From NCBI GenBank assembly GCA_947172415.1, contig OX359197.1, positions 3,100,001 to 3,164,000 of the forward strand: a stretch of DNA of 64,000 nt. Direction: 5' to 3'. Positions 8,036-56,119 of this stretch are shown here, piece by piece. The translations under genes and the position numbers were made by a program. Source of the stretch: Chondrosia reniformis (lineage: Eukaryota; Porifera; Demospongiae; Chondrillida; Chondrillidae). Under the pieces are notes generated by a model. That model had not been told where the DNA came from. It saw only the letters and a program-made list of their open reading frames with translations, and ran no database searches. The number at the start of each line of letters is the position of its first letter. The first letter of the stretch is position 1.

Positions 8036-8866
8036 CTATTCGGCTAGGTTACTTTTTAACCTTTCAGTCTGAGCCTCCCGGAGGTCACGTGCCACTCTCC
8101 TCCATTCTCTTACACTATTTTGTGAGGGATCTGTCTTTAGCCACATTTCCGGTTCTAGTTCAATTCTTTGGCTTCCCAGTATCAATCTGGCTTCTTTCAA
8201 GACAGTCCTCCTATGCTTTGAGCACTCCAGCCAATTTTTGTGTTTAACCACAAGAGCTGTGAGTGGATCATTTGCAGTATGGAGGTATCTTGCCAGATTC
8301 AAAACAGTCCTGTCGTGATCCAAAGGAAAACTACAGAGCCCTCTACCACCTTGAGAGCAAGGCAGGTTCACTCTCTCAATGGCAGAGTTATAGTGATGAC
8401 ACTGGTACTTTCTCATGATCTTTCTCACCATTCAGTCCTGTTTTGGAAGCTCACTTTGTGTCCACCTCAAAACTGTGTAAGAGTATCTCAATAGAGAGGT
8501 ACACAACATGTTAGAGGCTTCTGCAGTATTCTTACCATTGAGGTGAGAGCCCCACACTTTGTGGAGTCTCCTCCTCAATTCGTTGATCAAGCAAGCTTTG
8601 ACCTTGCTGTCATCTACCTCAAACAGTTGTTCTAGCCCTAGGTACTTATAAGTAGTACCTTTTTCAAGGCTCCTTATGGATTCTTCACTGCGTTCAGGGT
8701 TGTCTGGGCCAGTCAGAACTTTCCCCTTTTGCATGTGAGCTGTTCCACACTTTCTCACTCCAAACCTCATGCCAATGGCATTTGAGGTTTTCTCCACACA
8801 TTCCATGGCTTCCCTGAGTTTATCAGGCCCTCCAGCATATATCTTAAGGTCATCCATGTACAACAA
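8036..8866 (-). pseudogene. LINE copy B: RT motif C and thumb region
   Basis: Two open stretches in the same frame (8432-8866 and 8036-8431), separated by a TGA stop at about 8432-8434. The first begins just upstream of YMDDLKIYA and includes YKYLGLEQLFEV. The second has the SQGGRGLCSFPL block and ends in a Glu/Arg-rich helix. The motif B-C interval upstream (8867-8930) holds the same TAG and TAA stops as copy A. The element ends 5' at about 9012, so motifs 1, 2 and A are missing. Confidence 0.8.
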
Positions 8867-9014
8867 GTGTTACATGGTGTTCCTTTCCCCATTATGCCAG
8901 AGGGTCTATCCCTTGGCTCTGTTAAGAACTTGGGATATGGGAGCTATGGACAGACAAAAGAGGAGTGGCGATAAGGAGTCTCCTTGGAAGAGTCTCCTGT
9001 TATATTTAACAGGA

Positions 9015-9945: not shown

Positions 9946-10332
9946 TTATAGGCATCCTTTCCCGCCATTTTTGATTACCTCATCAATGATGTCATCGGTT
10001 ACATCATTTCCGGAAGAAGGAGAGGTGAAGGGAGTATTCAGAAAAAAGGGTTTCCAACCACTTCTTAGTACAAATCCTTGATCTAAGTTCATTCTTGCCC
10101 GACATTGTTGGATCTTCAAGGCTTCCTTAATTCTTTTTCTGTACCAGTTCTCTTCCTTCTCCAACACTCTGGCTTGGCTCCACTCAATTGGATGGCCAGT
10201 TTTTAGGGAGTGAACAGCTAAGCCGTTGTTCACATCCCCCATCATGACTTTTAGCGTTCTTCCAGTTTCTCCAGTGTACACTGCAGGGCAACTAGAACAT
10301 GGGATCTGGTAAACGACACCTTTAATATCCAT
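9946..10332 (-). pseudogene. PLE copy 1: GIY-YIG endonuclease domain
   Basis: The minus strand reads VVYQIPCSSCPAVYTGETGR, the PLE form of the GIY-YIG motif with its CxxC pair, then continues to the C terminus of the protein ending at TAA near 9946. Compared with copies 2-4 it lacks about ten residues just after TGRTLKV (the R-x-x-EHKRAVR stretch), an in-frame deletion that removes conserved positions of the nuclease fold. The domain would cut target DNA for integration; this copy is probably inactive. Confidence 0.85.
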
Positions 10333-10374
10333 GGTAGGCTGGGGTTGTTTAGGCCTAGAGAGGATACTCCTCAG

Positions 10375-11136
10375 TCAACTCTGCTTTGTGAAGATGGTTT
10401 GAATGTTCATCTTCCGGCATGTTCTGGAGATCATTTCACTGAGGCCTTTTACATATGGAATAAAAAGTTTACGTTTACCATCTACCCTACTTCCCTGGTT
10501 CCGTAGTCTCTTCTTCATGTGACTAGCAGCAACCTTACTGGGGTATCCGTTGGCCTGGAGTACCCCTTTCAGGTGCTCTTTTTCCTCTTGGAGGACACTG
10601 GATCCAGCACCACAGATCTTCTCCGCTCTGTCCCTGAGGCAAAGGGCAATGCCAACTTTCACTTTAGGATGGTGATGAGACGAGAAGTGAAGGTATCTAT
10701 CCGTGTGGGTTGGTTTTCTGTACACGGATGTACTCAAACTTCCTTTGTTCTTCTTCACTAGCACGTCAAGAAACGGGATTGAGCCATCTGTCTCCTCCTC
10801 CATGGTGAACTGGATGTTTCCGTGTCTTCCATTAAGGAAAGACAGAAAATCCTCCAACTGATCCCTACCTTGGCTCCAGATGACAAAGGTTTCGTCTATA
10901 TAACATAGCCAGAGCCTAGGTTTGGAGCCAACCTCCGGGAGGGCTTCGTTTTCAAACTCTTCCATGAAGATGTTTGCCACCACTGGAGAGAGAGGAGAGC
11001 CCATGGCTGCCCCATCCTTCTGCTCAAAGAACTCGTTAACGTACTGGAAGGACGTTGTCCTAAGACAGAGTTCTGTGAGCATCGTGATGGTGGGAGGGTC
11101 CAGAGTGGTCCGGTCTGAAAGGATGTTGTCTTCCCT
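10375..11136 (-). pseudogene. PLE copy 1: reverse transcriptase domain, 5'-truncated
   Basis: Contains RT motif B (QKDGAAMGSPLSPVVANIF), motif C written CYIDETFVIW, motif D-like FLDVLVKKN, and the PLE-specific YRKPTHTDRYLHFSSHHHP block. The catalytic YxDD is altered to YIDE (Glu codon at 10891-10893); copy 3 keeps YVDD at the matching place. Motif A and everything upstream are absent because the body stops at about 11137. A stop and frame change near 10375 separate it from the endonuclease. The Asp-to-Glu change and the truncation make it non-functional. Confidence 0.85.
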
Positions 11137-11248
11137 CAGCCTCAGACAAAAGAATTGAAAAAACTGCATCTCTAGATGCTCTAAAAGTCAAAAGATAAAA
11201 CTTTACAAAGATAAGTTCGACGCAGTTACAAGAAATCCTTATTCCATT
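11137..11248 (+). repeat. Inverted copy of PLE 3' end at its 5' side
   Basis: Read on +, this matches the 3' terminal sequence of the element (AAGAATTG, then A-run and ACTGC, then TCTAAAAGTC, then CTTTACAAAGATAAG) and extends it with TTCGACGCAGTTACAAG and CCTTATTCCATT. It is in opposite orientation to the body at 9812-11136. The same extension in reverse begins PLE copies 2 (29971) and 4 (55048). Confidence 0.8.
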
Positions 11249-18655: not shown

Positions 18656-18735
18656 GTCATTGGTACTAGTTGTATTTACTAGTTGTATGTACTATTACTG
18701 GTAATATTTACTAGTTGTAAATACTAGCTGCATGA
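18640..18735. other. Satellite orientation switch point
   Basis: Left of about 18650 all units read ACTAGTACATACA; from about 18657 all read TGTATGTACTAGT and continue so to the end of the window (the Naiad-like PLE is inserted 80 bp later). The inverted 18676-18735 stretch matches 59160-59217 closely. No foreign sequence is needed at the joint beyond a few bases (ATATTGTCATT). Confidence 0.85.
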
Positions 18736-19016
18736 AAAATCTAATAATAATAATTTTCCTACATGCTATATGCCTATTCTTTAAAAAGAGCCTATAGGGG
18801 AACTAAACCTAAAGAGAGCTTTAGATGAAGATACAGGAGTCTTTTCTTCCTTCTTTCATCTACTTCTCCACTGGGTCAGACAGCTGTTTCTGGGAATTCC
18901 ACCCTTCATCAGTGATCCTGGGAGTCTTTGTCTTTTTCTTTATCTTGATCTTCTGTGAATCCTTGGCTCTCTATACTAAATCTAGGGGCCTTATATACAC
19001 TATTTTGGCGCCAAAA
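18736..19016 (-). repeat. 3' PLTR of the Naiad-like element
   Basis: Direct-repeat partner of 22178-22299 and parent type of the solo copies at 4307 and 14410. It ends internally at the perfect palindrome TTTTGGCGCCAAAA (19003-19016). Confidence 0.8.
18869..18925 (-). ncRNA. Hammerhead ribozyme-like motif (Naiad-like 3' PLTR)
   Basis: Minus strand: CTGATGA (18906-18912), stem II GGG/CCC with an A.A apposition at its base, GAAA, stem III AC...GT with loop AGCT, and GTC at 18879-18881. Stem I forms from GGATCA and TGACCC with one mismatch and continues past an internal loop. It lies on the element's sense strand. The word GAAACAGCTGTCTG is shared exactly with the ribozymes at 31888 and 32279. 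Confidence 0.65.
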
Positions 19017-19279
19017 GTTAAATAAGGTGTTAACTAAGACACATGATGAAATTTAATTTTATGAAAGGAATGTAGGTCCAATTAACTTCATGAATTAATT
19101 ATAAATCTATTAGTAATCTTGCTTAGAGGTAAAACAGGCTCAGCATAACTATAGACACAAGTAGGACATATTACATAAGTCTACCCTTAGGTATTCTAGT
19201 AGTAACATTTCTTTGGAGGTGGGGTAACACAAGACAGTCCTTAAGCATACTAGCTACTTTTTGCTTAACTTGATTCTAA
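19017..19279 (-). other. 3' UTR of the Naiad-like element
   Basis: 263 bp between the RT stop codon and the PLTR. No open frame. Naiad elements can be selenoproteins needing a SECIS element; I see no in-frame TGA upstream and no convincing SECIS core here. Confidence 0.5.
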
Positions 19280-20965
19280 CTAGAGGCTGCCGGGATAGGA
19301 AGGTTTAAAGGTTGATTTTAGCTTAAAGTATTTGTAACCCTGTTTAATAAGCCTACTGCATAAATGCAAACTTTTAGACTGAAAACTGGAATACCTAATT
19401 AGTTGTGAAATAAAGACACCATAGGCTGGGGTATTAGGAATATTACTATCTAAATGGGGGAAATTTACTATATCAAAGTTAAAGTCCTCTCGCTTATCAT
19501 ATACTTTAGTGATAAATTGATTGTTAGTAATGGTTATATCTAAGTCTAAAAAGGGGGATTTACTAGGGCTGGTATTTGTCTTTTTAAGATTAATTTGTTT
19601 GGGGTAAATATCACTAATTGACAGTTCAAAATCCTTGTTGTTAATACAAAAAAGGTCATGAATATACCTATAAGTATTGGAAAATTTAATAGCTAAGGTG
19701 ATGTTATCCTTAAGTAGTCCTTTCATAAACTCATACTCATATGCAAACAGAAAAAGATTAGCAACTACAGGGGCACAGTCAGTACCCATTGGGACACCTA
19801 CGCATTGCCTAAATACAGAACCGTCTACACATACATAAATGTTGTCAATAAAGTAGTTAAAGAGCTCTACTAAATGAACAGCTGTGACTGCTTTATTGGA
19901 GACATTGTTAGACCAAAAGGCTTTATCCTGACAGACTTCTATATATTGGGACTTCCTACAGGTATAGGCACTATGAATAAGGTTAGTAATCTTGTCTTTA
20001 AGTAAGTTATGGGGGATCGCTGTATATAAGGTAGAAAAATCAAAACTAGCTAGCTGTGCTTTTCTAGCGGGTATAGACCTAAGACTATCTAAGACTTCTT
20101 GTGAGTTTTCTACTATCCAAAAGGCATTAACACCAGTATTCCTATATATACCTAGGCAGTATTCTCTAAAATGTTTGAGAATTAGTCTGAGTGTCGAATT
20201 TAGAAATCTAGAAAGAGGTTTGGTAGTACATTTGTGAGAGGCAGCTATGAATCTGTAGCTGTAAGGGTTCTTATGTAGCTTAGGCATCCAGTAAAAAGAG
20301 GGAAGGTTGCACCAGTCTGGTTTAGGTTCTAAGTTCTCTAGTTTTAAGAAATCTATGTGTTTCCTAATTAACTGTTGGGGTTCTACTGTACACTTAGCAT
20401 AAGTGGAGGTACTGCCTAGTTCTTCATTAATAATTTGTCTATAGTAGGACTTACATATAAATATTATATTATTAGAGGCCTTTCTGGCAGGGGCTATAAC
20501 ATACTTATCATGTAGGTCTGCTAAGAATTTCTTAATTTTAGGGCAAGTAAGGGTCTTCTTGGCTACTGAGGATTTGGTATACAATTTAGACAGCTTAGAG
20601 ATCCTATCATTAATTTTCCTAAGTACAGTATTTTCCCACTCACTAAATACAGAAATAGATACATTTTCTCTACGGGCCCAGGTAATCTTATATTTTCTAA
20701 GACGTTCCTTACACATTTTTAAAGCAGTTACCCAATTAAAGTTATTAGGTTCTCTAAATTTTGGTCCTTTCTGAAGAAGTTTTCTATGTTTTGGGTAACT
20801 AACAATACGTAGGTCACCTGTTATAACATGGCCTAGGGGCTTGTAAATGAAGGGGGACTTGTGACACTCACATTGTTCTGGTTTTCTAAAGACATCTGAC
20901 TTAGAGGCTTGCGAAAAGTTAAAGATTTGAGATCCTATTGGTTGAGTATACTTATTACTACACAT
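19280..20965 (-). pseudogene. Naiad-like PLE: reverse transcriptase frame (561 codons, altered active site)
   Basis: A long intact frame ending in TAG. Early residues have C-E-C (33-35) and the HVITGDLRIV block (46-55). RT proper: PKLHKNPYSYRFIAAS (about 228-243), motif A ASFDFSTLYTAIPH (306-319), motif B QCVGVPMGTDCAPVVANLF (387-405), motif C YRYIHDLFC (432-440), motif D PFLDLDITI (471-479). The second-to-last position of YxDD is His (codon 19658-19660) where the family has Asp, which should abolish catalysis. APARKASNN at 158-166 also has Arg in place of a usually conserved Asp. The first codons overlap the upstream frame by 31 bp at a run of C, so this is the downstream part of one polyprotein, not a separate gene. 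Confidence 0.85.
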
Positions 20966-21362
20966 GGGGGCTCTTTGTTTTGTATAAAAGGTGGGACAGT
21001 TTCTAACACTAACTTTTGGTTTAAGATACCCGAGAGGCCTATTTTTTCCACACCTTTAATATGAAACATGATTTCAAGAAACCCTTCTGGACTTGTCGTT
21101 TTCGTTGGGTGTTTGGGAAGGCTGGCTGAAGCGAGTGTTTTAATAACATCTTTAATCATTAGCATAAGTCTAAGCGGAAAAGCTGTTTCTGGGGAATCGA
21201 TGAGACGTTGTACCGAGTTTAACAAACGATGAAGGTGTCGAGCTTGTAATGCAAAAGTATCGCGTTTAAGTTTGGCTAGAAAGCCCACGTTCTTGTAAAG
21301 TGGTAGTCGTTCTTTGAGCCATTCAGTGTCGAAGGTAGCGTTATTACTACTGCCTGTCAATT
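20935..21362 (-). pseudogene. Naiad-like PLE: linker region between GIY-YIG and RT
   Basis: About 141 codons without an ATG start, preceded by a basic KRHRRSNLKL stretch. It ends ...VLETVPPFIQNKEPP, which in relatives continues directly into the next frame. The join to the RT frame is a one-base shift within CCCCC (about 20961-20965), and the join to the GIY-YIG frame a one-base shift in the A-run near 21386-21392. Its role in PLEs is unknown. A Leu-rich helix (LQARHLHRLLNSVQRL) is visible. Confidence 0.7.
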
Positions 21363-21917
21363 TTAGATTGGAGCGCCGATGCCGTTTTTATGAGATAAGC
21401 GATTAAAAAGGTTCCATACGATGATTTCTTTTTTAAGTTTTGAAATATTGACAACACCTTTAATGTTATCGTTAAGTCCATATGGGTAAATAGAGCAGAG
21501 TGCCTTGTACCAGAACACTTCTCTCAGTAGTCTGAGGCTAGTAGAATTAGGTGTCTCAGGTATCTGTTCTATGGGCATAATCAAGGCATCATCAAAACTA
21601 CGGTTATCAGAATTAAAGTGATTATAAAGATACAGCGGCTTAAAGCCTTTGGTACTAGTCCTATGGTTGTTCATTCTACTCCTAAGCATTTGAGAGGTTT
21701 CTCCTACATACTGTACATCACATTGTTTACAAGTAATAAGATACACAACATTCCTACTCTGGCATCCTAGGGGACCACAAGGGCTACGGACTTGATAGGT
21801 CCTGCCAGTAACTGAACTCTTAAAAGTAGGGCCAGTAACTAAAGAGGGACATGTTTTACACCGCTTATTGCTACACTTCTTAACTAGTGAGGGGCTAGCT
21901 TGCCCAGCAGTAGGCAC
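21363..21917 (-). pseudogene. Naiad-like PLE: N-terminal CxC zinc motif and GIY-YIG endonuclease
   Basis: The frame holds KKCSNKRCKTCP (a C-x4-C-x2-C cluster), CGPLGC, then VVYLITCKQCDVQYVGETSQ, which is GIY-YIG written VYL...YVG with a CxxC pair between, followed by R-x-R-x-x-x-H (MLRSRMNNHR). A Lys-rich tail follows to a TAA. In this clade the domain is at the N terminus and supplies target cleavage. There is no ATG: the frame opens after a TAA with GTG, and the more 5' residues (DEKLANSPPSVGKG) are found in another frame across a GGGG run, so there is a frameshift at about 21918. Confidence 0.85.
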
Positions 21918-22177
21918 CCCTTACCTACAGATGGGGGAGAGTTAGCTAACTTTTCATCACCATGCACCCTAAATTTACCTAATGACGGGGAGTTGTTAAC
22001 CCGGGCGACCACCCAGCCGGTATCCTATCTCTATACTTTGTACTTGTCATGATTGGAAATGGGTCAAGGACTAGACAAGCTAGTCCACAAAGACCTAACC
22101 TATTACATGTAGCCGGGGCTATTTAAAGGCAACAATGGCTCAACAGCCACCAGGGACTACCATGAGGCTAAGTAAAC
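21918..22177 (-). other. 5' leader and frameshifted N terminus of the Naiad-like element
   Basis: 260 bp between the GIY-YIG frame and the 5' PLTR. The first 120 bp decode to a plausible N terminus in another frame (WVVARVNNSPSLGKFRVHG); the rest is untranslated. A small hairpin, GGACTAG with CTAGTCC, lies at about 22067-22085. Confidence 0.45.
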
Positions 22178-22299
22178 ACATGAAAAATCTAATATACCAT
22201 TTTCCTACATGCTATATGCCTATTCTGAAAAAAGAGCCTATAGGGGAATTAAACCTAAAGAGAGCATTATATGAAGATACAGGAGTCTCTTTTTCCTTC
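22178..22299 (-). repeat. Partial 5' PLTR of the Naiad-like element
   Basis: Matches the first 120 bp of 18736-19016 in the same orientation (GAAAAATCTAA through the AGCCTATAGGGG and GATACAGGAGTC words) and stops at the satellite before reaching the hammerhead part. In sense direction this is a 5'-truncated upstream PLTR. Confidence 0.75.
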
Positions 22300-25200
22300 A
22301 ATGTACCAGTTGTATGAACTAGTACAAGTTATGTTTACTAGTTGTAAGTATTAGTTGCATGTACTAGTTGCATGTAGTGGTTGTGTGTTCTAATTGTATT
22401 AACTAGTTGCATATACTACTTGTATGGACTAGTTATATATTAGATGTATGTACTAGTTGTATGTACTAGTTGTATGTCCTAGTTGTATTTACTACTTGTA
22501 TGTCCTAGTTGAATGTACTACTTGTATGTACTACTTGTATATCCTATTTGTATGTACTCGTAGTATGTACTAGGTGTACGTACCTGTAATATGTACTAGT
22601 TATAGGTTCTAGTACTAGTGATACTAGATGCTTAGTAGGTATTACTTGTATGTACACATCCTAGTTATATTATTTAATTATATAGATGAATGTACTAGCT
22701 TTGTACAAGTTGTATGTACTAGTAATATTAATGAGTGGTATGTACTAATACTGGTAATATTTCCTAACTGTAGCCACAAGTTGTGTGTACTAGTTGTATG
22801 TATTAACCTTATGTATTAGTTATGTACTAGTTGCATATACTAATTCTAATAACTAGTTGTATGTACTAGTAATGGTAATATTTACTAGTTGTAGGTACTA
22901 GTTTTATGCACTAGTTGTATGTACTAGTACAAGTTAAATTTACTAACTATAGCTATTAGTTGTATGTAGTAGTTGTATGTTATAATTGTTTGAACTAGTT
23001 GTATATACTAGTTTTATTTACTAGTTGTATATACTAGTTGATGATTCTTGTGCTAGTTATGCTAGGTACTAGGTAGGTTCTAGTTGTATGTCCTAGTTGT
23101 TTGTACTAGTTGTATGAACTAGATGTATGTACTAATCGTATGTAATAATTCTATATACTAGTTGGATTTCCAGTTTAATGTTCTAGTTGTATGTACTATG
23201 TTTTATATGTACTAGTTATATGTGTATATGCTTGTCATAGGTACTAGTTGTTAGTACAAGTTGCATGAACTAACGGTATGTACTAGAACTTGTAATATTT
23301 ATTAACTGTAAGCAGCAGCACTTGTTTATCCTAGTTGTATGTACTAGTTGTATGTACTAGTCCAAGTTATATTTACTAGTTATATTTACTAGTTGTATGT
23401 ACTAATTGTATGTACTAGGTGTATGTACTATTTATAGGTACCAGTTATATGTGTATGTACTAGTTATATGTAGTAGTTGGGTACTAGTTATAGGTACTAG
23501 TTGTAAGTTCTAGTACTAGTAAAACTAGGTACTAAGTAGGTACTAGTTGTCTGCACCAATTGCATATACTAGTTGTATTTACTAGTTGTTTGTACTGGTT
23601 TTATGTACTAGTTGTATGGACTATTTATATGTTCTAGTTATATGTGAAATGATAGGGGGTAATTTTAGTTGCGTTCATTATGAAAGATAAGTTTATTGGA
23701 GCTATCGGCAACAAAATTGAGCAAGATTGTAGTTATATGTGTATGTTATAGTGATAGGTACTAGTTGTATGTGCTAGTTGCATGAACTAGTGGTATGTAT
23801 TAGTTATATGTTCTTGTTCCATGCACTAGTTTGTAGTTCTATGTAGTAGTTGTGTGTAAAACTAATATGAACTAGTTGTATGTACTAGCTCTATGTGTAT
23901 GTACTAGTCATACATAGTAGTTACTTGTACTAGTTATATGTACTAGTTGTAAGTACTAGTTGTACACACTAGTATATGTACTATGTGTAGGTTCTAGTAC
24001 TAGTTATACTAGGTACTAGGTGGGTGCTAGTTGTAAGCACTAGCTCTAGTTATATGTACTAGTTCTAGGTACTAGTTTCATATACTTGATGAATGTTATT
24101 AGTTGTATTTACTAATTGTATGTACTGGTTGTAGGTACTAGTTGTATGAACTAGTTATGTACTATATAGTTGCATGTACTAGTTGTATGTACTACCAATA
24201 TGTACTAGTTATGTACTAGTTGTTAGTAGTAGTATTATTAACTAGTTGTATGTACTATTACTGGTAATAATTACTAGTTGTAAATCTTAGTTGTATGTAC
24301 TAGTTGTATGTACTATTACAAGTTATGTTTACTAGTTGTAGGTATTAGTTGCATGTACTAGTGGCATGTAGTAGTTGTGTTTGCTAATTGTACTTACTAC
24401 TTGTATTGACTAGTTATATACTAGGTGTATGTACTAGTTGTGTGTACTAATTTTATGTCCTAGTTGTATTTCTACTTGTATGTCCTAGTTGAATGTACTA
24501 CTTGTATGTACTAGTTGTATGTACTATTTGAATGTACTCGTAGTATGTACTAGGTATATGTACCAGTTATGAACAAGTTGTATGTACTAGTAGTATTAAC
24601 TAGTGGTGTGTACTAGTACTGGTAATACTTACTAACTGTAGCCACTAGTTGTATGTACTAGTTGTATGTACTAGCACTTGTTATATTTACCAGTTGTAGG
24701 TACTAGTTGTATGTACTAGTTGTGTGTACTAGTTGTGTCTACTACTTGTATGTACTAGTTGTATGTACTAGTTGTATGTACTAGTTGTATTTAATAGTTG
24801 TATGTACTAGTTCTATGAACGAGATGTATGTACTTTTATGTACTAGTTATATATAGTAGTTGTTTGTACTAGTTATATGTACTACTTATGTACTAGTTGT
24901 ATGTACTAATAGTATTAACTAGTGTTATGTACTAGTACTGGTAATATTTACTAACTGTAGCCAATAGTTGTATGTACTAGTTGTATGTACTAGCACTTGT
25001 TATATTTACCAGTTGTTAGGTACTAGTTGTATGTACTAGTTGTGTGTACTAGTTGTGTCTACTACTTGTATGTACTAGTTGTATGTACGAGATGTATGTA
25101 CTTTTTATGTACTAGATATATATAGTAGTTGTTTGTACTAGTTATATGTACTACTTATGTACTAGTTGTATGTACTAGTGGTATGTACTAATAGTATTAA

Positions 25201-30139: not shown

Positions 30140-30655
30140 TTATAGGCATCTTTTCCCGCCATTTTGGATTACCTCATCAGTGATGTCATCGGTTACATCA
30201 TTTCCGGAGGAAGGAGAGGTGAAGGGAGTATTCATAAAAAAGGGTTTCCAACCACTTCTTAGTACAATTCCTTGATCTAAGTTCATTCTTACCTGACATT
30301 GTTGGATCTTCAGGGCTTCCTTAATTCTTCTTCTGTACCAGTTCTCTTCCCTCTCCACCACTCTGGCTTGGCTCCACTCAATTGGATGACCAGGTTTTAG
30401 GGAGTGAACAGCTAAACCATTGTTCACATCCCCCATCCTGACGGCACGTTTGTGCTCCACCATCCTGACTTTTAGTGTTCTTCCAGTTTCTCCAGTGTAC
30501 ACTGCAGGGCAACTAGAACAGGGAATCTGGTAAACGACACCTTTAATATCCATGGTAGGCTGGGGTTGTTTAGGCCTAGAGAGGATACTCCTCAGTGATC
30601 TCTGCTTTGTGAAAATGGTTTCGATGTTCATCTTCCGGCATGTTTTGGAGATCAT
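30140..30655 (-). pseudogene. PLE copy 2: GIY-YIG endonuclease domain
   Basis: The best preserved family-1 endonuclease: VVYQIPCSSCPAVYTGETGR followed by TLKVRMVEHKRAVRMG and an uninterrupted C terminus with DVTDDITDEVIQNGGKR. It begins with MISKTCRKMNIETIFTK, the segment joining RT to the endonuclease. Frame continuity with RT is lost at about 30652-30655 (one-base shift). The nuclease motif residues look intact. Confidence 0.85.
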
Positions 30656-31436: not shown

Positions 31437-31738
31437 TATTTGTATGTACTAGTTTTATGTACTAGATATATGTAGTAGTTGTTTGTACTAGTATATTTGT
31501 ACTAGTTGTACTTACTATTTATATGTACTAATTATATGTGTATGTACTAGGTATATGTACTACTTGTATGTACTAGCTGTATGTATATACTAATGGTATT
31601 TACTAATTGCATGTACTAGTTGAATGTACTATTACTAGTTATATTTACTAGTTGTATGTGCTAGTTGTATGTACTAGTTGTATATGGTAGTTGTATGTAC
31701 TAATTGTATTTACTATATGTATATACTAGTTATATGTT
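31437..31738 (-). repeat. 13-bp satellite, inverted orientation, between MITE and retrozyme-like insertion
   Basis: Matches 42004-42313 closely, the stretch beside the other MITE copy. This identifies the latter as the empty site for the next feature. Confidence 0.9.
31728..31738. repeat. Target-site duplication of the retrozyme-like insertion (left)
   Basis: AGTTATATGTT, repeated at 32517-32527. The paralogous sites at about 42310 and 63590 have it once. Confidence 0.85.
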
Positions 31739-31887
31739 GATAAGCAAAGGTATTCACTGGAAGATATTACGCCAAACCAGCCAAGGGACCGAAGTCTAAT
31801 CTTGGCTGGGGGACCGAAGTCCTATTAAAAATGGCAACCAGTGATGGCCTCCCAGTCATCCAAGATGGAAAAAAATTCATCAAAGAA

Positions 31888-31930
31888 CCACAGACAGCTG
31901 TTTCACCCTCATTTGGGCTCATCAGTGTGG
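31888..31930 (-). ncRNA. Type I hammerhead ribozyme, left arm
   Basis: On the minus strand: stem I halves CCACA (31926-31930) and TGTGG (31888-31892), five Watson-Crick pairs; core CTGATGA (31919-31925); stem II GCCC/GGGT with loop AAATGA; GAAA; short stem III AC/GT with loop AGCT; cleavage expected after GTC (31893-31895). Every conserved core position is present. Short stem III ribozymes of this kind are often active as dimers. Confidence 0.9.
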
Positions 31931-32278
31931 TACACTTCAATGATGGTGATTTGGATGACCGTCTTCACTTATTAATCAGCCACAAGTGAAACACTTGTGG
32001 TTTCATAATAAGCAAAGATGGAGGGCTGCAGTCTAAGCAAGACCGAGCGCTCACAATGAAAAAAGGGAGTTAATTGCACTGATCTGTGCAAAGGCTAGGA
32101 TGATAAGCAAAAGTATTCACTGGAAGATATTATTATATACTCCCTTTTTTCATTGTGAGCGCTCGGTCTCGCTTAGACTGCAGCCCTCCATCTTTGCTTA
32201 TTATGAAACCACAAGTGTTTCACTTGTGGCTGATTAATTAGTGAAGACGGTCATCCAAATCACCATCATTGAAGTGTA

Positions 32279-32321
32279 CCACGCTGATGAGCCCAAATGA
32301 GGGTGAAACAGCTGTCTGTGG
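32279..32321 (+). ncRNA. Type I hammerhead ribozyme, right arm
   Basis: Same motif as the left arm with one stem I change giving a G.T pair (CCACG at 32279-32283 with TGTGG at 32317-32321). Core CTGATGA 32284-32290; stem II 32291-32294 with 32301-32304; GAAA 32305-32308; stem III loop AGCT 32310-32313; GTC 32314-32316, cleavage expected after 32316. Confidence 0.9.
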
Positions 32322-32516
32322 TTCTTTGATGAATTTTTTTCCATCTTGGATGACTGGGAGGCCATCACTGGTTTCCATTTTTAATAGGACTTCGGTCCCC
32401 CAGCCAAGATTAGACTTCGGTCCCTTGGCTGGTTTGGCGTAATATCTTCCAGTGAATACTTTTGCTTATCATCCTAGCCTTTGCACAGCTCAATGCAATT
32501 AACTCCCTTTTTTCAT

Positions 32517-32527
32517 AGTTATATGTT
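32517..32527. repeat. Target-site duplication of the retrozyme-like insertion (right)
   Basis: AGTTATATGTT directly after the right arm; satellite then resumes with CTAATTATTAG exactly as at 42316. Confidence 0.85.
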
Positions 32528-47350: not shown

Positions 47351-50300
47351 TTTTGTACTTTTTGTATGTTCTATTAGTATTTACTAGGGTTATGTACTGG
47401 TAATATTTACTAACTTTAGCCACTAGTTTTATGTACTAGTGTTATGAACTAGTTAAAGTTATATTTACTAGTTATATGTGTATGAACTAGGTATATGTAC
47501 TAGTTTAATGAACTGGTTGTATGTACTAGTTGTATGAACTAGGTATATGTACTAGTTTAATGAACTGGTTGTATGTACTAGTTGTATGTACCAGTTGTGT
47601 GTTCTTGTGTCTACTACTTGTATGTACAGGTTGTATGGGCTAGTTGTATGTACTGGTTGTATTTACTAGTTGTATGCACTAGTTGTATGTACTAGTTGTG
47701 TGCACTAGTTGTGTCTACTTCATGTATGTCCTAGTTGTTTGTACTAGTTATATGTAGTAATTGTATGTACTAGTTGTATGTGCTAGATACTAGATGTATG
47801 TAGGAGTTGTATGGACTAGTTCTATGTACTAGTTGTATGTACTATGTGTATCTACTATTTATATGTACGAGTTATATTTTATGTATTAGTTATATATACT
47901 AGTTGCAAGTACTAGTTGTATGTACTAGTTGTTTGGACTAGAATTAGCTATTTTACTAGTTGTAGGTACTAGTTGTATGTGGTAGTTGTATGTAGTAGTT
48001 GTATGTACAAATTGTATGTATTAGTAGTGTGTACTAGTTGTATGTATATATTAATTGAATGTACTAGCTATATACTAGTTGAATGTTCTAGTTGAAGGTA
48101 CTAGTTTCATGAACTATATAGTTGTAGGTACTAGTTGTTTGTACTAGTTGTATGTAATAGTTATATTTACTATTTGTATGTACTAGTTATATGTTTGTGA
48201 CCCAGTTATATGTACTAGTTTTATACACTAGGTGTATGTACTAGTTGTATATACTATTATATTTACTAGGTATATGTGTATGTACTAGTTATATTTAGTA
48301 AGTGTATATACTAGTTATATGTCCTATTCATTTGAACTAGTTGTATGCAGTAGCCATGTACTAGTTGTATATACAAGTTGTACGTTCTAGTATTAAGTAC
48401 TCGTTCTATGAACTAGTTGTATGTACCAGTTTCTAGTTGTATGTACTAGTTTTATCAACTAGTTGTATGTACTATGTGTATGTACTATTTATAAGTGCCA
48501 ACTTTATGTTTGTGTACTAGCTATATGTACTAGTTGTATTCGCTAGCTGTGTGTACTAGTTGTATGTACTATATATAATTTCTAGGTATATGTGTATGTA
48601 CTAGTTATATGTAGTAGGTGTATGTACTAGCTATATGTCCTAGTTGTTTGTACTAGTTGCATATACTAGTTGTATGTACTAGTTGTGTGTACTATTTGGT
48701 TGTACTAGTTGTATGTGCTAGTTGCATGTACAAGTTGTATGCAATAGTTTTATGTGCTAGTTCTGGTTATATTTACTAATTGTGGTAGTTATGTTCGAGT
48801 TGTACGTACTAGTGTTACGTATAAACAAGTTGTATGTAGTAGTTATATACTAGTTGTATATACAAGTTGTAATTTCTAGTATCATGTACGCGTGCTATGA
48901 AGTAGTTGTAGGTACTAGTTTCTAGTTGTATGTACTAGTTGTATGCACTTGTTGTATCTACTCTTTGTATGTACTATGTGTGTACATACACATAGTACAT
49001 ACAAAGAGGTATAAGTTTGTGTACTAGTTATATGTACTAGTGGTATGTACTAGCTGTATGTACTAGTTGCATATTCTATTTATATTTACAAGGTATATGT
49101 GTATTTACTAGTTATGTGTAGTAGGTGAATGTACTAGTTATATGTCTTAGCTGTTTGTCCTAGCTGTATGTACTACTTGAATGTACAAGTTGGGTGTGCT
49201 AATTGTATATACCAGTTGTGTGTACTATTTGTCATGTACTAGTTGTATATACTAGGAGCATGTACTAGTTGTATGCACTAGTTATATGTACTAGCTCTTG
49301 TTATATTTACTAATTGTAGGTACTAGTTGTATGTAGAAGTTGTATGTAGAAGTTGCATGTACTAGTTATGTATTAGTTGCATATACAAGTTGTATGTTCT
49401 AGTTGTATATACTAGTTGTTGATTCTTGTGCTAGTTATGCTAGGTACTAGGTAGGTTCTAGTTGAATGTACTAGTTGAATGTTAAAGTTGTATGAATTAG
49501 TTGTATGTACAAGTACAAGTTATATTTACTAGTTATAGGTATCAGTTGTATGTACTAGTTGTATGTAGTACGTGTATGTTCTAAATGCATGAACTAGTTG
49601 TGTGTAGTAGTTGTATGTTCTAATTGTTTGAACTAGTTGTATGTACTAATTGTATGTACTAGTTAAGTACTAGTTATATGTATAGTTTTATGTACTATTT
49701 CTGTGTACTAGTTGTATATACTAATTGTATACTACTTGAATGTACTAGTTGTATGTACTATTTATAGGTACCAGTTATATGTGTATGTACTAGTTATATG
49801 TAGTACTTGGGTACTAGTTATAGGTACTAGTTGTAAGTTCTAGTACTTGTAAAAGTAGGTACTAAGTAGGTACTTGTTGTCTGTACCAATTGCATATACT
49901 AGTTGTATATACTAGTTATGTACCAGTTGTATGTACTAGTTGTATGTATTAGAACAAGTTATAAAAAATAGTTACATTTACTAGTTGTATGTAAAAGTGC
50001 AAGTTATATTTATTAGTTATGTTTATTAGTTGTATTTACTAATTGTTTGTACTGGTTTTATGCACTAGTTGTATGGACTATTTATATGTACTAGTTTTAT
50101 GTGTATGTTATAGTGATAGGAACTAGTTGTATGTGCTAGTTGTATGAACTAGTGGTATGTACTAGTTATATGTTCCAGTTCCATGCACTAGTTTCTAGTT
50201 CTATGTAGTAGTTGTGTGTAAAACTAAAATGAACTAATTGTATGTACTAGCTCTATGTGTATGTACTAGTTATACGTAGTAGTTACTTGTATTAGTTATA

Positions 50301-51349: not shown

Positions 51350-51765
51350 TTATAGGCATCTTTTCCCGCCATTTTGGATTACCTCATTAGTGATGTCATC
51401 GGTTACATCATTTCCGGAGTAAGGAGAGGTGAAGGGAGTATTCATAGAAAAGGGTTTCCAACCACTTCTTAGTACAAATCCTTGATCTAAGTTCATTCTT
51501 ACCCGACATTGTTGGATCTTCAGGGCTTCCTTAATTCTTCTTCTGTACCAGTTCTCTTCCCTCTCCACCACTCTGGCTTGGCTCCACTCAATTGGATGGC
51601 CGGTTTTTGAGGGAGTGAACAGCTGAGGCCATTGTTCACATCCCCCATCCTGATGGCACGTTTGTGCTTTGCCATCCTGACTTTTAGTATTCTTCCAGTT
51701 TCTCCAGTGTACACTGCAGGGCAATTGGAACAGGGGATCTGGTAAACGACACCTTTAATATCCAT
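51350..51765 (-). pseudogene. PLE copy 3: GIY-YIG endonuclease domain
   Basis: Split between two frames at about 51610-51630 (one extra base in the GTTTTTGAGGG stretch). The upstream part has VVYQIPCSNCPAVYTGETGR and the EHKRAIR-type stretch; the downstream part has the QLSGAKPEW or IEWSQARVV segment and the common C terminus ending at TAA near 51350. Motif residues are intact but the protein is frameshifted. Confidence 0.8.
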
Positions 51766-53130
51766 GGTAGGCTGGGGTTGTTTAGGCCTAGAGAGGATAC
51801 TCCTCAGTGATCTCTGCTTTGTGAAGATGGTTTCAATGTTCCTCTTCCGGCATGTTCTGGATATCATTTCACTGAGGCCTTTCACATATGGAATAAAACG
51901 TTTATGTTCACCATCTACCCTACTTCCCTGGTTTCGTTGTCTCTTCTTCATGTGCCTAGCAGCAACCTTACTGGGGTATCCGTTGGCCTGGAGTACCCCT
52001 TTCAGGTGCTCTTTTTCCTCTTGGAGGACACTGGATCCAGCACCACAGATCTTCTTCGCTCTGTCCCTGAGGCAAAGGGCAATGCCAGCTTTCACTTTAG
52101 GATGGTGATGTGACGAGAAGTGAAGGTATCTATCCGTGTGGGTTGGTTTTCTGTTCACAGATGTACTCAAACTTCCTTTGTTCTTCTTCACTAGCACGTC
52201 AAGAAACGGGATAGAGCCATTGTCTCCTCCTCCATGGTGAACTGGATGTTTCTGTGTCTTCCATTAAGGAAAGACAGAAAATCCTCCAGCTGATCCCTAC
52301 CTTGGCTCCAGATGACAAAGGTGTCGTCTACATAACGTAGTCAGAGCCTAGGTTTGGAGCCAGCCTCCTGGAGGGCTTCGTTTTCAAACTCTTCCTTGAA
52401 GATGTTTGCCACCACTGGAGAGAGAGGACAGCCCATGGCTGCCCCGTCCTTCTGCTCAAAGAACTCGTTACCGTACTGGAAGGACGTTGTCCTAAGACAG
52501 AGTTCTGTGAGCATCGTGATAGTGAGAGGGTCCAGAGTGGTCCGGTCTGATAGGGTGTTGTCTTCTCTCAGCCTCCTATCAATGATCTGTAAGGAGAGAT
52601 CTATAGGCACCTTCGTAAACAAACTCTTCACATCAAAACTGATTAACTTATCTTCATTCTCTACTTGTAATCCCCTGATTGTCTTCACAAAATCCTCCGA
52701 GTTCCTCACAAAGTGAGGAGTGTTCCCTCACAAAGGTGACAGGATATTTGCCAGATATCTGGATTGGTGGTAGGTAGGAGAGTTTATAGAGGAAACAATA
52801 GGTATCAAGGGGCAACTGGCCTTAGGGATCTTTGGGAGTCCATATAACTAGGGGGTGGAGCTCTGTTGGTTCTCAACCCTCTTCCTCAGATCATTGGGGA
52901 GTTTGCCATTTCTTTACAGTGACCGGAGAACTTCAGTTACCTTCCGTTCTATTTTCAATGTTGGGTTCTTTTTGATTGGTTCATAGCTTGAATCATCCAA
53001 AAGTTCCCTTACTTTGCGGTCATACTCTTCTTTGTCCCGGAGGACTGTGGCATTTCCCTTGTCTGCTGGAAGAATGATGGTATCAGGATCCACCTTGAGC
53101 TCCTTGATGGCTGCTGTCTGACGTTTGGTC
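51766..53130 (-). pseudogene. PLE copy 3: reverse transcriptase domain
   Basis: Sequence blocks in order on the minus strand: IILPADKGNATVLRD (about 53040-53085), a degraded stretch at 52713-52913, then LISFDVKSLFTKVPIDLS (motif A), QKDGAAMGCPLSPVVANIF (motif B), LRYVDDTFVIW (motif C, about 52310-52345), FLDVLVKKNK (motif D), and the RKPTHTDRYLHFSSHHHP block. The catalytic Asp pair is preserved. Frame changes near 52200-52340 and 52710 break the protein. Function in an intact relative: target-primed synthesis of element cDNA. Confidence 0.85.
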
Positions 53131-54960: not shown

Positions 54961-55419
54961 AAAACTAGATGGTTACAGTAACGGGCATTCTTTGATGTTC
55001 CTAAGTTGGGAGCACACGGCGATTGTAGTTCGCTCTGAGCGATCAATAATGGAATAAGGCTTTCTTATAACTGCGTCGATCTTATCTTTGTAAAGGTTCA
55101 TCTTTCGACTTTAAGAGCGTCTAGAGACGCAGTTTTTTCCAATTCTTCTGTCTGCCAAACGTTTCAACCCTGGGGTTCTTCTTCAGTGACTGGTGGTGGT
55201 CTTCAAGGTGTCTTCATTTATAAGCATCTTTTCCCGCCATTTTAGATTACCTCATTAGTGATATCATCGGTTACGTCATTTCCTGAGGAAGGAGAGGTGA
55301 AGGGAGTATTCATAGAAAAGGGTTTCCAACCACTTCTTAGTACAAATCCTTGATCTAAGTTCATTCTTACCTGACATTGTTGGATCTTCAGGGCTTCCTT
55401 AATTCTTCTTCTCCACCGG

Positions 55420-56119
55420 GTGAAAGCTGGCATTGCCCTTTGCCTCAGGGACAGAGCGGAGAAGATCTGTGGTTCGGGATCCAGTGTCCTCCAAGAGGAA
55501 AAAGAGCACCTGTAAGGGGTACTCCAGGCCAACGGATACCCCAGTAAGGTTGCTGCTAGGTACATGAAGAAGAGACAACGAAACCAGGGAAGTAGGGTAG
55601 ATGGTGAACATAAACTTTTTATTCCATATGTGAAAGGCCTCAGTGAAATGATATCCAGAACATGCCGGAAGATGAACATTGAAACAATCTACACAAAGCA
55701 GAGAACACTGAGGAGTATTCTCTCTAGGCCTAAACAACCCCAGCCTACCATGGATATTAAAGGTGTCGTTTACCAGATCCCCTGTTCTAGTTACCCTGCA
55801 GTGTACACTGGAGAAACTGGAAGAACGCTAAAAGTCAGGATGGCAGAGCACAAACGTGCCGTCAGGATGGGGGATGTGAACAATGGCTCAGCTGTTGACT
55901 CCCTAAAAACCGGCCATCTGGTACAGAAGAAGAATTAAGGAAGCCCTGAAGATCCAACAATGTCGGGTAAGAATGAACTTAGATCAAGGATTTGTACTAA
56001 GAAGTGGTTGGAAACCCTTTTCTATGAATAATCCCTTCACCTCTCCTTACTCCGGAAATGATGTAATCGATGACATCACTAATGAGGTAATCCAAAATGG
56101 CGGGAAAAGATGCCTATAA
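55420..56119 (+). pseudogene. PLE copy 4: late RT and GIY-YIG endonuclease
   Basis: Begins in the basic region after RT (LQEEKEHL-type) and passes through KKRQRNQGSR to VVYQIPCSSYPAVYTGETGR and TLKVRMAEHKRAVRMG. The second Cys of the CxxC is Tyr here, which would disturb the small zinc-like cluster. An internal deletion of about 40 bp at about 55920 (after KTGH) shifts the frame, and the C terminus resumes in another frame to TAA at 56117-56119. Confidence 0.8.

Follow-up and report, generated by a model that had tools for sequence, protein, structure and literature searches.

How an inverted pair of hammerhead-bearing units came to lie within a 13-bp satellite is the question raised by a 777-bp insert (positions 31739 to 32515) in contig OX359197.1 of the sponge Chondrosia reniformis. 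We analyzed a stretch of 64,000 nt of this contig, referred to as the window, and coordinates are window positions unless stated otherwise; the genome searched was the 117.38-Mb, 15-contig assembly that contains the window. The insert is an inverted pair of a 363-nt unit, the arms of which are 98% complementary over 338 nt, and both arms are slightly longer than one 363-nt circle. Its parts, and one element outside it, are as follows.

31727 to 31738, no strand: left target site duplication TAGTTATATGTT, identical to 32516 to 32527
31739 to 32132, minus strand: left arm, 394 nt, a full circle plus 31 nt; the RNA 3' end is site A (GCTTATC..) at 31739
31879 to 31943, minus strand: left-arm type I hammerhead, identified by its core motif and by alignment with relatives; cleavage is predicted between 31893 and 31892
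32133 to 32138, no strand: filler TTATAT, 6 nt, at the head-to-head junction
32139 to 32515, plus strand: right arm, 377 nt, a full circle plus 14 nt; the RNA 3' end is site B (CTTTTTTCA) at 32515
32266 to 32330, plus strand: right-arm type I hammerhead, identified by its core motif and by alignment with relatives; cleavage is predicted between 32316 and 32317
32516 to 32527, no strand: right target site duplication TAGTTATATGTT
18731 to 22335, minus strand: Penelope-like element with a GIY-YIG frame upstream of a reverse transcriptase (RT) frame and the 3' end TTTTTCAT; candidate helper type, outside the insert

Among the frames of at least 120 aa, none overlaps the insert, in agreement with an initial annotation of this DNA in which the unit was described as devoid of coding capacity. 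Rfam matches to MIR5048, MIR2871, MIR7696, mir-556, and snoR125 over the insert were set aside, since they were below their cut-offs and tracked the long inverted repeat. A strong hairpin is also present at 48947 to 49019, where several microRNA models match both strands, all below their cut-offs. The satellite is found in the window from 3240 to 64000, reading CATACAACTAGTA in the left part and TACTAGTTGTATG in the right part, and GC and AT skew shift near 18.6 to 19 kb. Genome-wide, there are 5,900 exact dimers of this satellite; the 100 of these that were listed lie at 3.8 to 4.2 Mb of contig C1, where strand switches were seen as well. The satellite region may be a pericentromeric marker.

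Both arms were annotated initially as hammerheads, and complete cores (CTGATGA, GAAA, and GTC, with CAGCTG as stem III) are indeed present, on the minus strand in the left arm and on the plus strand in the right arm. The pattern CTGATGA-N4..20-GAAA occurs six times in the window, compared with 0.07 occurrences expected. Three of the remaining four cores (4374, 14569, and 18887) are the minimal hammerhead of a Penelope-like element, and the fourth, at 30152, which overlaps the end of a GIY-YIG frame, looks fortuitous. The pairing-preserving G.T change reported for stem I of the right arm is real (CCACG versus CCACA). The first pair of stem II is G.U in both window hammerheads (GGGT), the commonest form among 96 sampled copies being GGGC, and the right hammerhead has an additional G.U at the base of stem I. 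The Infernal check against Rfam proposed with the annotation failed for the window copies, which scored 24.8 and 22.2 bits with the HH9 model (threshold, 52), and succeeded for some of the relatives. In a search of the whole window, only the 24.8-bit match passed an E value of 0.5. The low scores are explained by the G.U that both copies carry at the first pair of stem II. With the type I model RF00163, three of four relatives (L017, L038, and L045) reached 34.6 bits, above the cut-off of 34, and the fourth (L071) remained below it with 27.9 bits.

A genome search for the unit, likewise proposed with the annotation, yielded many related copies, and two-armed inserts were common. The best 40 candidates scored in the first similarity search gave 40 clusters, and further searches added more; each search scored its best candidates only (40, 40, 40, and 73), so that the counts given here are no census. 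The criterion for picking loci was resemblance to the unit or the hammerhead score, irrespective of their ends. The copies belong to two subfamilies, U1 (363 nt) and U2 (359 nt), and to a further family, U3 (354 nt), which is identical to U1 at 196 of 339 aligned positions (58%). The genome search with RF00163 gave 72 matches from the best 73 of 11,921 first-look candidates, and 51 of these matches were above the cut-off; among 14 control genomes, one gave a match, which was below it. It was through this search that U3 was recognized. The hammerheads of U3 and other families scored 37 to 43 bits with Rfam. An ungapped exact core pattern was found at 325 places in the genome, some of which are of the Penelope minimal type, versus none for the reversed control, and the exact U1/U2 core was found at 97 places. 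Among the latter, 11 neighboring pairs on opposite strands lie less than 900 bases apart, and by eye all of them read minus and then plus. Tandem copies are present at several loci (for example, L020, L038, and L055); the window insert is inverted and not tandem. A further type of hammerhead, with the stem II GCCC-NAAAGA-GGGC, was noticed at L131 (C1:1460499) and at places listed for the ungapped core pattern and has opposite-strand neighbors at C3:6124324-6124642, which suggests another retrozyme family. An exact scan of viral contigs for the hammerhead core and a blastn search of a phage collection gave no match.

The hammerhead is conserved among these copies. (i) An intact core was recognized by pattern in 85 of the 96 sampled copies. 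(ii) Comparison of the U1 and U2 majority sequences revealed differences at 39 aligned positions, all of them outside the hammerhead region (u309-363 and u1-28 of the unit). (iii) Within U1, variability is 0.014 in the hammerhead versus 0.047 in the rest of the unit; within U2, it is no lower in the hammerhead than in the rest (0.026 for both). (iv) In a set composed of U1, U2, U3, and further copies (21 sequences, 19 of them distinct), four stem pairs have changed on both sides between families, and 95.9% of the cells are paired. All 500 shuffles fell short of the covariation score and of the count of cells with two-sided changes. However, the number of pairs with a change on both sides was reached by 190 of the 500 shuffles, and the count of pair types was below that of the shuffles (500 of 500); few events underlie the covariation. 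Within U1 and U2 alone, covariation was near chance. Given its palindromic stem III (CAGCTG), the ribozyme may work in dimeric form, as has been reported for amphibian and Penelope hammerheads according to the excerpt of a review.

Many of the inserts are flanked by target site duplications. Edges sharing at least 11 nt were found in 31 of 67 U1/U2 inserts but in only 8 of 1,321 shuffled flank pairs, and edges sharing at least 10 nt in 10 of 19 U3 inserts but in only 1 of 709 shuffled pairs; a shared 11-nt edge is absent in the other 36 U1/U2 inserts. The duplications are 12 to 14 nt long in 33 of 37 repeats, and 74% of their bases are A or T. These 37 repeats comprise 30 of the 31 U1/U2 cases, the 22-nt satellite match of L065 having been omitted, and 7 of the 10 U3 cases. 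Some of the duplications are in periodic satellite, where a match is less informative, and the shuffles include satellite flanks; by a threshold set in this analysis, 22 of the 67 inserts have satellite-rich flanks. The 12-bp duplication of the window insert alone is weak evidence, since it is located in the 13-bp satellite. The length of 12 to 14 bp is close to the satellite period of 13 bp. The initial reading of the unit as a retrozyme-like element with type I hammerheads is supported by the number of copies, by their conservation and the covariation between families, and by the target duplications.

To determine the anatomy of the inserts, 67 U1/U2 inserts (66 loci) were aligned with the circular form of the unit; pieces totaling less than 150 nt were left out of this set and of the counts of 97 arms used below, from which the inserts L014, L015, L061, and L063 were also left out. 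Two arms were found in 44 of the 67 U1/U2 inserts and in 15 of the 19 U3 inserts analyzed (a set that excludes L131, which is of another family, and in which L121 is truncated where the retrieved sequence ends). In all of them the minus arm precedes the plus arm, so that the RNA 3' ends point outward. The window insert had been described as an inverted full-unit dimer. The inversion holds, but the arms slightly exceed one unit, and the arrangement is a common insertion product rather than a special dimer.

The outward ends cluster at two sites of the unit, namely, site A (..TTATCAT, with TCAT at U1 153-156) and site B (..TTTTTCAT, with TCAT at U1 197-200), which are 44 nt apart in U1/U2. Both ends lie within 6 nt of a site in 36 U1/U2 inserts, and 35 of these combine one A with one B end (18 with A on the left and 17 with B on the left), one is A/A (L056), and none is B/B (P = 1e-9 against a proportion of 0.5). 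One end is off both sites in eight two-armed inserts (L009, L031, L033, L062, L063, L066, L067, and L068), and the remaining 23 inserts have a single detected arm, although inspection by eye indicates a second, short arm (about 11 nt) in L036. In U3, the corresponding sites are ..GATGATGACAT and ..TTTTTTCCAT, which both end in CAT and are about 51 nt apart, and all nine inserts with both ends definable are A/B. The windows for A and B were set after inspection of the ends, in U3 as well; for this family, the pairing rule alone had been predicted beforehand. The two inserts at L032 share a flank, and L115 and L117 look like one duplicated insert; after duplicated loci were merged, the A/B counts were 34 of 35 (U1/U2) and 8 of 8 (U3). 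U1 folded as a circle has a free energy of -113.6 kcal/mol (z of about -6 versus 60 mononucleotide shuffles), and no common motif was found at A and B in the circular fold.

These end and polarity rules bear on an origin at the DNA level, either as a small terminal-inverted-repeat transposon or by recombination or palindrome formation after tandem insertion. Viewed alone, the window insert, with its 98% inverted arms and target duplication, resembles a small element of this kind, and segmental duplication of inserts does occur (L115/L117 and L013 to L015). However, the outward ends differ from each other (A versus B), junctions and arm lengths vary by locus, and polarity is always outward in the sample, so that the identical inverted termini and fixed internal structure of such a transposon are not found; moreover, the hammerhead is a block without fixed differences between U1 and U2. 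We regard an origin of this kind as the least probable of the explanations considered. The duplicated U3 insert is apparently present twice on contig C8 in opposite orientations (L115 and L117); its two arms are 93.3 and 91.6% identical to each other in the two copies, and matching arms are 97.7% identical between copies.

The junctions between arms were compared with another possibility, proposed for Penelope inverted repeats in the part of PMC3846280 consulted, namely, that a single cDNA folds back, primes its own copying, and is inserted as a hairpin. Mirror-like junctions, as a snap-back would leave, were seen within 10 nt at 7 of 59 junctions (5 if duplicated loci are merged), compared with about 3 expected by chance in rough arithmetic. 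At the other 52 junctions, in contrast, the arms end at different places of the circle, and a hairpin would not yield one A and one B end. Furthermore, in some inserts one arm resembles the sequences at other loci more than it does its partner (24 of 50 loci for L033 and 19 of 21 for L122), which suggests different template molecules; the partner arm was closest, or equal closest, in 13 of 41 inserts with comparable arms. For some inserts, the sequence comparison is thus suggestive of two arms copied from different templates. Self-priming therefore appears highly improbable. An overlap of at least 3 nt is present at 20 of the 59 junctions and filler of at least 1 nt at 20 of the 59, as in microhomology joining.

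The positions at which arms stop bear on the form of the template. In 76 of the 97 arms, copying continued for more than 10 nt past the predicted cleavage site, and 2 arms end near it, so that cleaved linear monomers were not the usual template. The distribution of arm lengths has its maximum slightly beyond one turn of the unit: stops within 110 nt of the start were observed in 6 of 97 arms on the first pass versus 36 of 54 after one turn (P = 2e-15, or 2e-7 on the assumption that each of the 23 one-armed inserts conceals another, very short arm). An enzyme on a closed circle meets its own primer and cDNA after one turn, which would explain a stop at this point, and the full-turn stops point, indirectly, to a circular template. 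Many stops are near the foot of a predicted GC-rich hairpin (u83-116), which is a competing cause, and the full-turn peak is weak in U3, where 4 of 27 arm lengths are at one turn (348, 348, 353, and 356 nt). The hairpin, which accounts for some stops, also fits linear templates, in which the RT would copy uncut multimers or jump between cleaved monomers, with twin priming and no RNA circle. The tandem arrays at L020, L038, and L055 could yield multimeric transcripts, and the two arms, in L043 and L052, whose ends are no more than about 10 nt from the cleavage site are likewise in favor of such templates. However, the excess of full-turn stops is unexpected from multimers or separate monomers. 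End-to-end template jumps often leave extra or missing bases, and no indel was visible across the cleavage site in the copies compared. We thus consider linear templates unlikely.

Which machinery copies the unit is suggested by the Penelope-like element of the window, although the non-coding unit, lacking RT and GIY-YIG genes of its own, is not itself a Penelope element. In the element at 18731 to 22335, the GIY-YIG domain was matched with an E value of 3.3e-5 and RVT_1 with 0.0088, the latter below its cut-off; homologues of 989 aa with 47 to 48% identity have both domains. The order, with GIY-YIG upstream of RT, is presumably that of the Naiad/Chlamys group. Its RT frame was found at more than 70 places in the genome (75 matches from the best 74 of 1,201 candidates scored), and the pLTR of the family has a minimal hammerhead with GAAACRGCTGTC. 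Of 20 sampled copies, 19 have the 3' end TTTTTCAT, which is the sequence of retrozyme site B, and 1 has TTTTTCA. In nine inserts of the family (five non-satellite and four in satellite, the latter uninformative), no clear 12- to 14-bp duplication was found, and the local family may therefore not be the helper. The sole inverted pair of Penelope pLTRs seen (L016) is B/B and not A/B. The retrozymes of L043 and L045 share one insertion point in a Penelope pLTR, 31 nt short of its end, and lie in opposite orientations. Pieces of a second Penelope-like family, with a GIY-YIG-like motif after the RT frame, are located at 9946-11187, 30140-30655, 51350-52727, and 55242-55938; they match RVT_1, and the GIY-YIG E value at 30140 is 0.011. 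The copies of this C-terminal type at 9946, 30140, and 51350 were discarded as a source of the sites, their 3' regions being unlike A or B. RT fragments (RVT_1) of other retroelements are present on the minus strand at 763-1158 and 8432-8869.

Biochemical and genomic data on Penelope elements, as given in the excerpts of the articles used here, provide a precedent. Cutting of both strands, and extension of both, has been demonstrated with purified Penelope protein, which initiates at two neighboring internal sites with an interval that matches the 30- to 40-bp tail (Frangieh et al. 2024, PMC11167929), and Penelope inserts have inverted pLTRs with a tail on one of them and 8- to 10-bp duplications (Arkhipova et al. 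2013, PMC3846280). The same combination of inverted outward ends, one of them tailed, is found in the retrozyme inserts (A/B in 35/36 and 9/9), and in the excerpt of PMC7229834, Penelope elements are described as no more than a strong candidate for the entry of animal retrozymes into genomes. The best reading is that Penelope-type machinery mobilizes the retrozymes, the local family being a candidate only.

The window insert and its relatives probably arose when Penelope-type machinery copied RNA circles by target priming at two ends, and this is the best explanation that we can offer. Outward polarity, A/B pairing, duplications, copying across the cleavage site, and the full-turn stop are read directly from many inserts; we infer self-cleavage, RNA circles, and the mobilizing enzyme. 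The transcript of the non-autonomous retrozyme would cut itself by its hammerhead and close into a 363-nt RNA circle. An endonuclease/RT, putatively of Penelope type, would cut an AT-rich target with a stagger of about 12 to 14 bp, as judged from the target duplications, and each free 3' end would prime copying of a circle, one at site A and the other at site B. The two copies would grow toward each other, usually for about one turn or less, preferentially halting just past their own start, and the cDNAs would be joined, often via a few shared bases or filler. The predicted product is two arms with outward RNA 3' ends, one A and one B, between target duplications.

We are evenly divided on whether this reaction is concerted, that is, whether a complex with two distinguishable RT positions (A and B) primes from the two 3' ends of a single staggered cut, each copying about one turn, sometimes from two RNA molecules. 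If it is, the one-sided Penelope tail would be the mark of an obligatory A/B pairing and not of an optional extension, and full-turn arms would be a genomic fossil of circular RNA templates. With dozens of readable junctions, the mechanism can be described by near-strict rules, namely, outward polarity, one A and one B end, a stagger of 12 to 14 bp, and a preferential stop after one turn. This end signature can be used to seek insertions templated by circular RNA in other genomes, and it offers a possible reading of the Penelope tail. The layout of the inserts also hints at how RNA circles spread, with circular RNA copied into both ends of one DNA break.

Among known systems, LINE twin priming also produces inversions, since both target ends prime on the element RNA. 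One of these ends starts at the RNA 3' end or poly(A), whereas both ends of the sponge retrozymes are fixed internal sites. Plant LTR retrozymes are likewise hammerhead retroelements thought to spread via RNA circles (PMC4918200), but, in the excerpts of PMC7761336 and PMC7229834, they differ by type III hammerheads located in LTRs, 4-bp duplications, and larger units. The animal non-LTR retrozymes (Cervera and de la Pena 2020, PMC7229834, in excerpt) are much closer, with a non-coding unit of 170 to 400 nt, a type I hammerhead, no LTR, tandem copies at some loci, and target duplications of more than 4 bp; in the sponge, we found type I hammerheads, non-coding units of 354 to 363 nt, tandem loci, and duplications of more than 4 bp. 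RNA circles have been shown for those retrozymes and would be expected here. Those elements are described in the excerpt as tandem repeats, whereas most of the inserts sampled here are inverted pairs with two fixed, different ends.

The inverted form had been considered unusual in the initial annotation. PMC7229834 does not contain the words "inverted," "head-to-head," or "sponge," or any that begin with "priming," no paper in open-licence PubMed Central combines "hammerhead ribozyme" and "Porifera," and among the matches listed in that literature no title or start of an abstract describes inverted retrozyme inserts. Within the literature searched, this form thus appears to be unreported for retrozymes, although it is the common insertion product of the families sampled here.

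The closest parallel to the layout of the inserts is found in Penelope-like elements, for which the excerpts of PMC3846280 and PMC11167929 describe inverted outward ends, a tail at one end, target duplications, AT-rich targets, internal start sites about 30 to 40 nt apart, and a hammerhead in the pLTR. The sponge duplications, at 12 to 14 bp, are longer than the 8 to 10 bp quoted for Adineta in PMC3846280. Compared with Penelope, the sponge unit is non-coding, its start sites are 44 nt (U1/U2) and about 51 nt (U3) apart and are paired in a nearly strict A/B manner, and its template behaves like a small circle that is copied into arms of about one turn.
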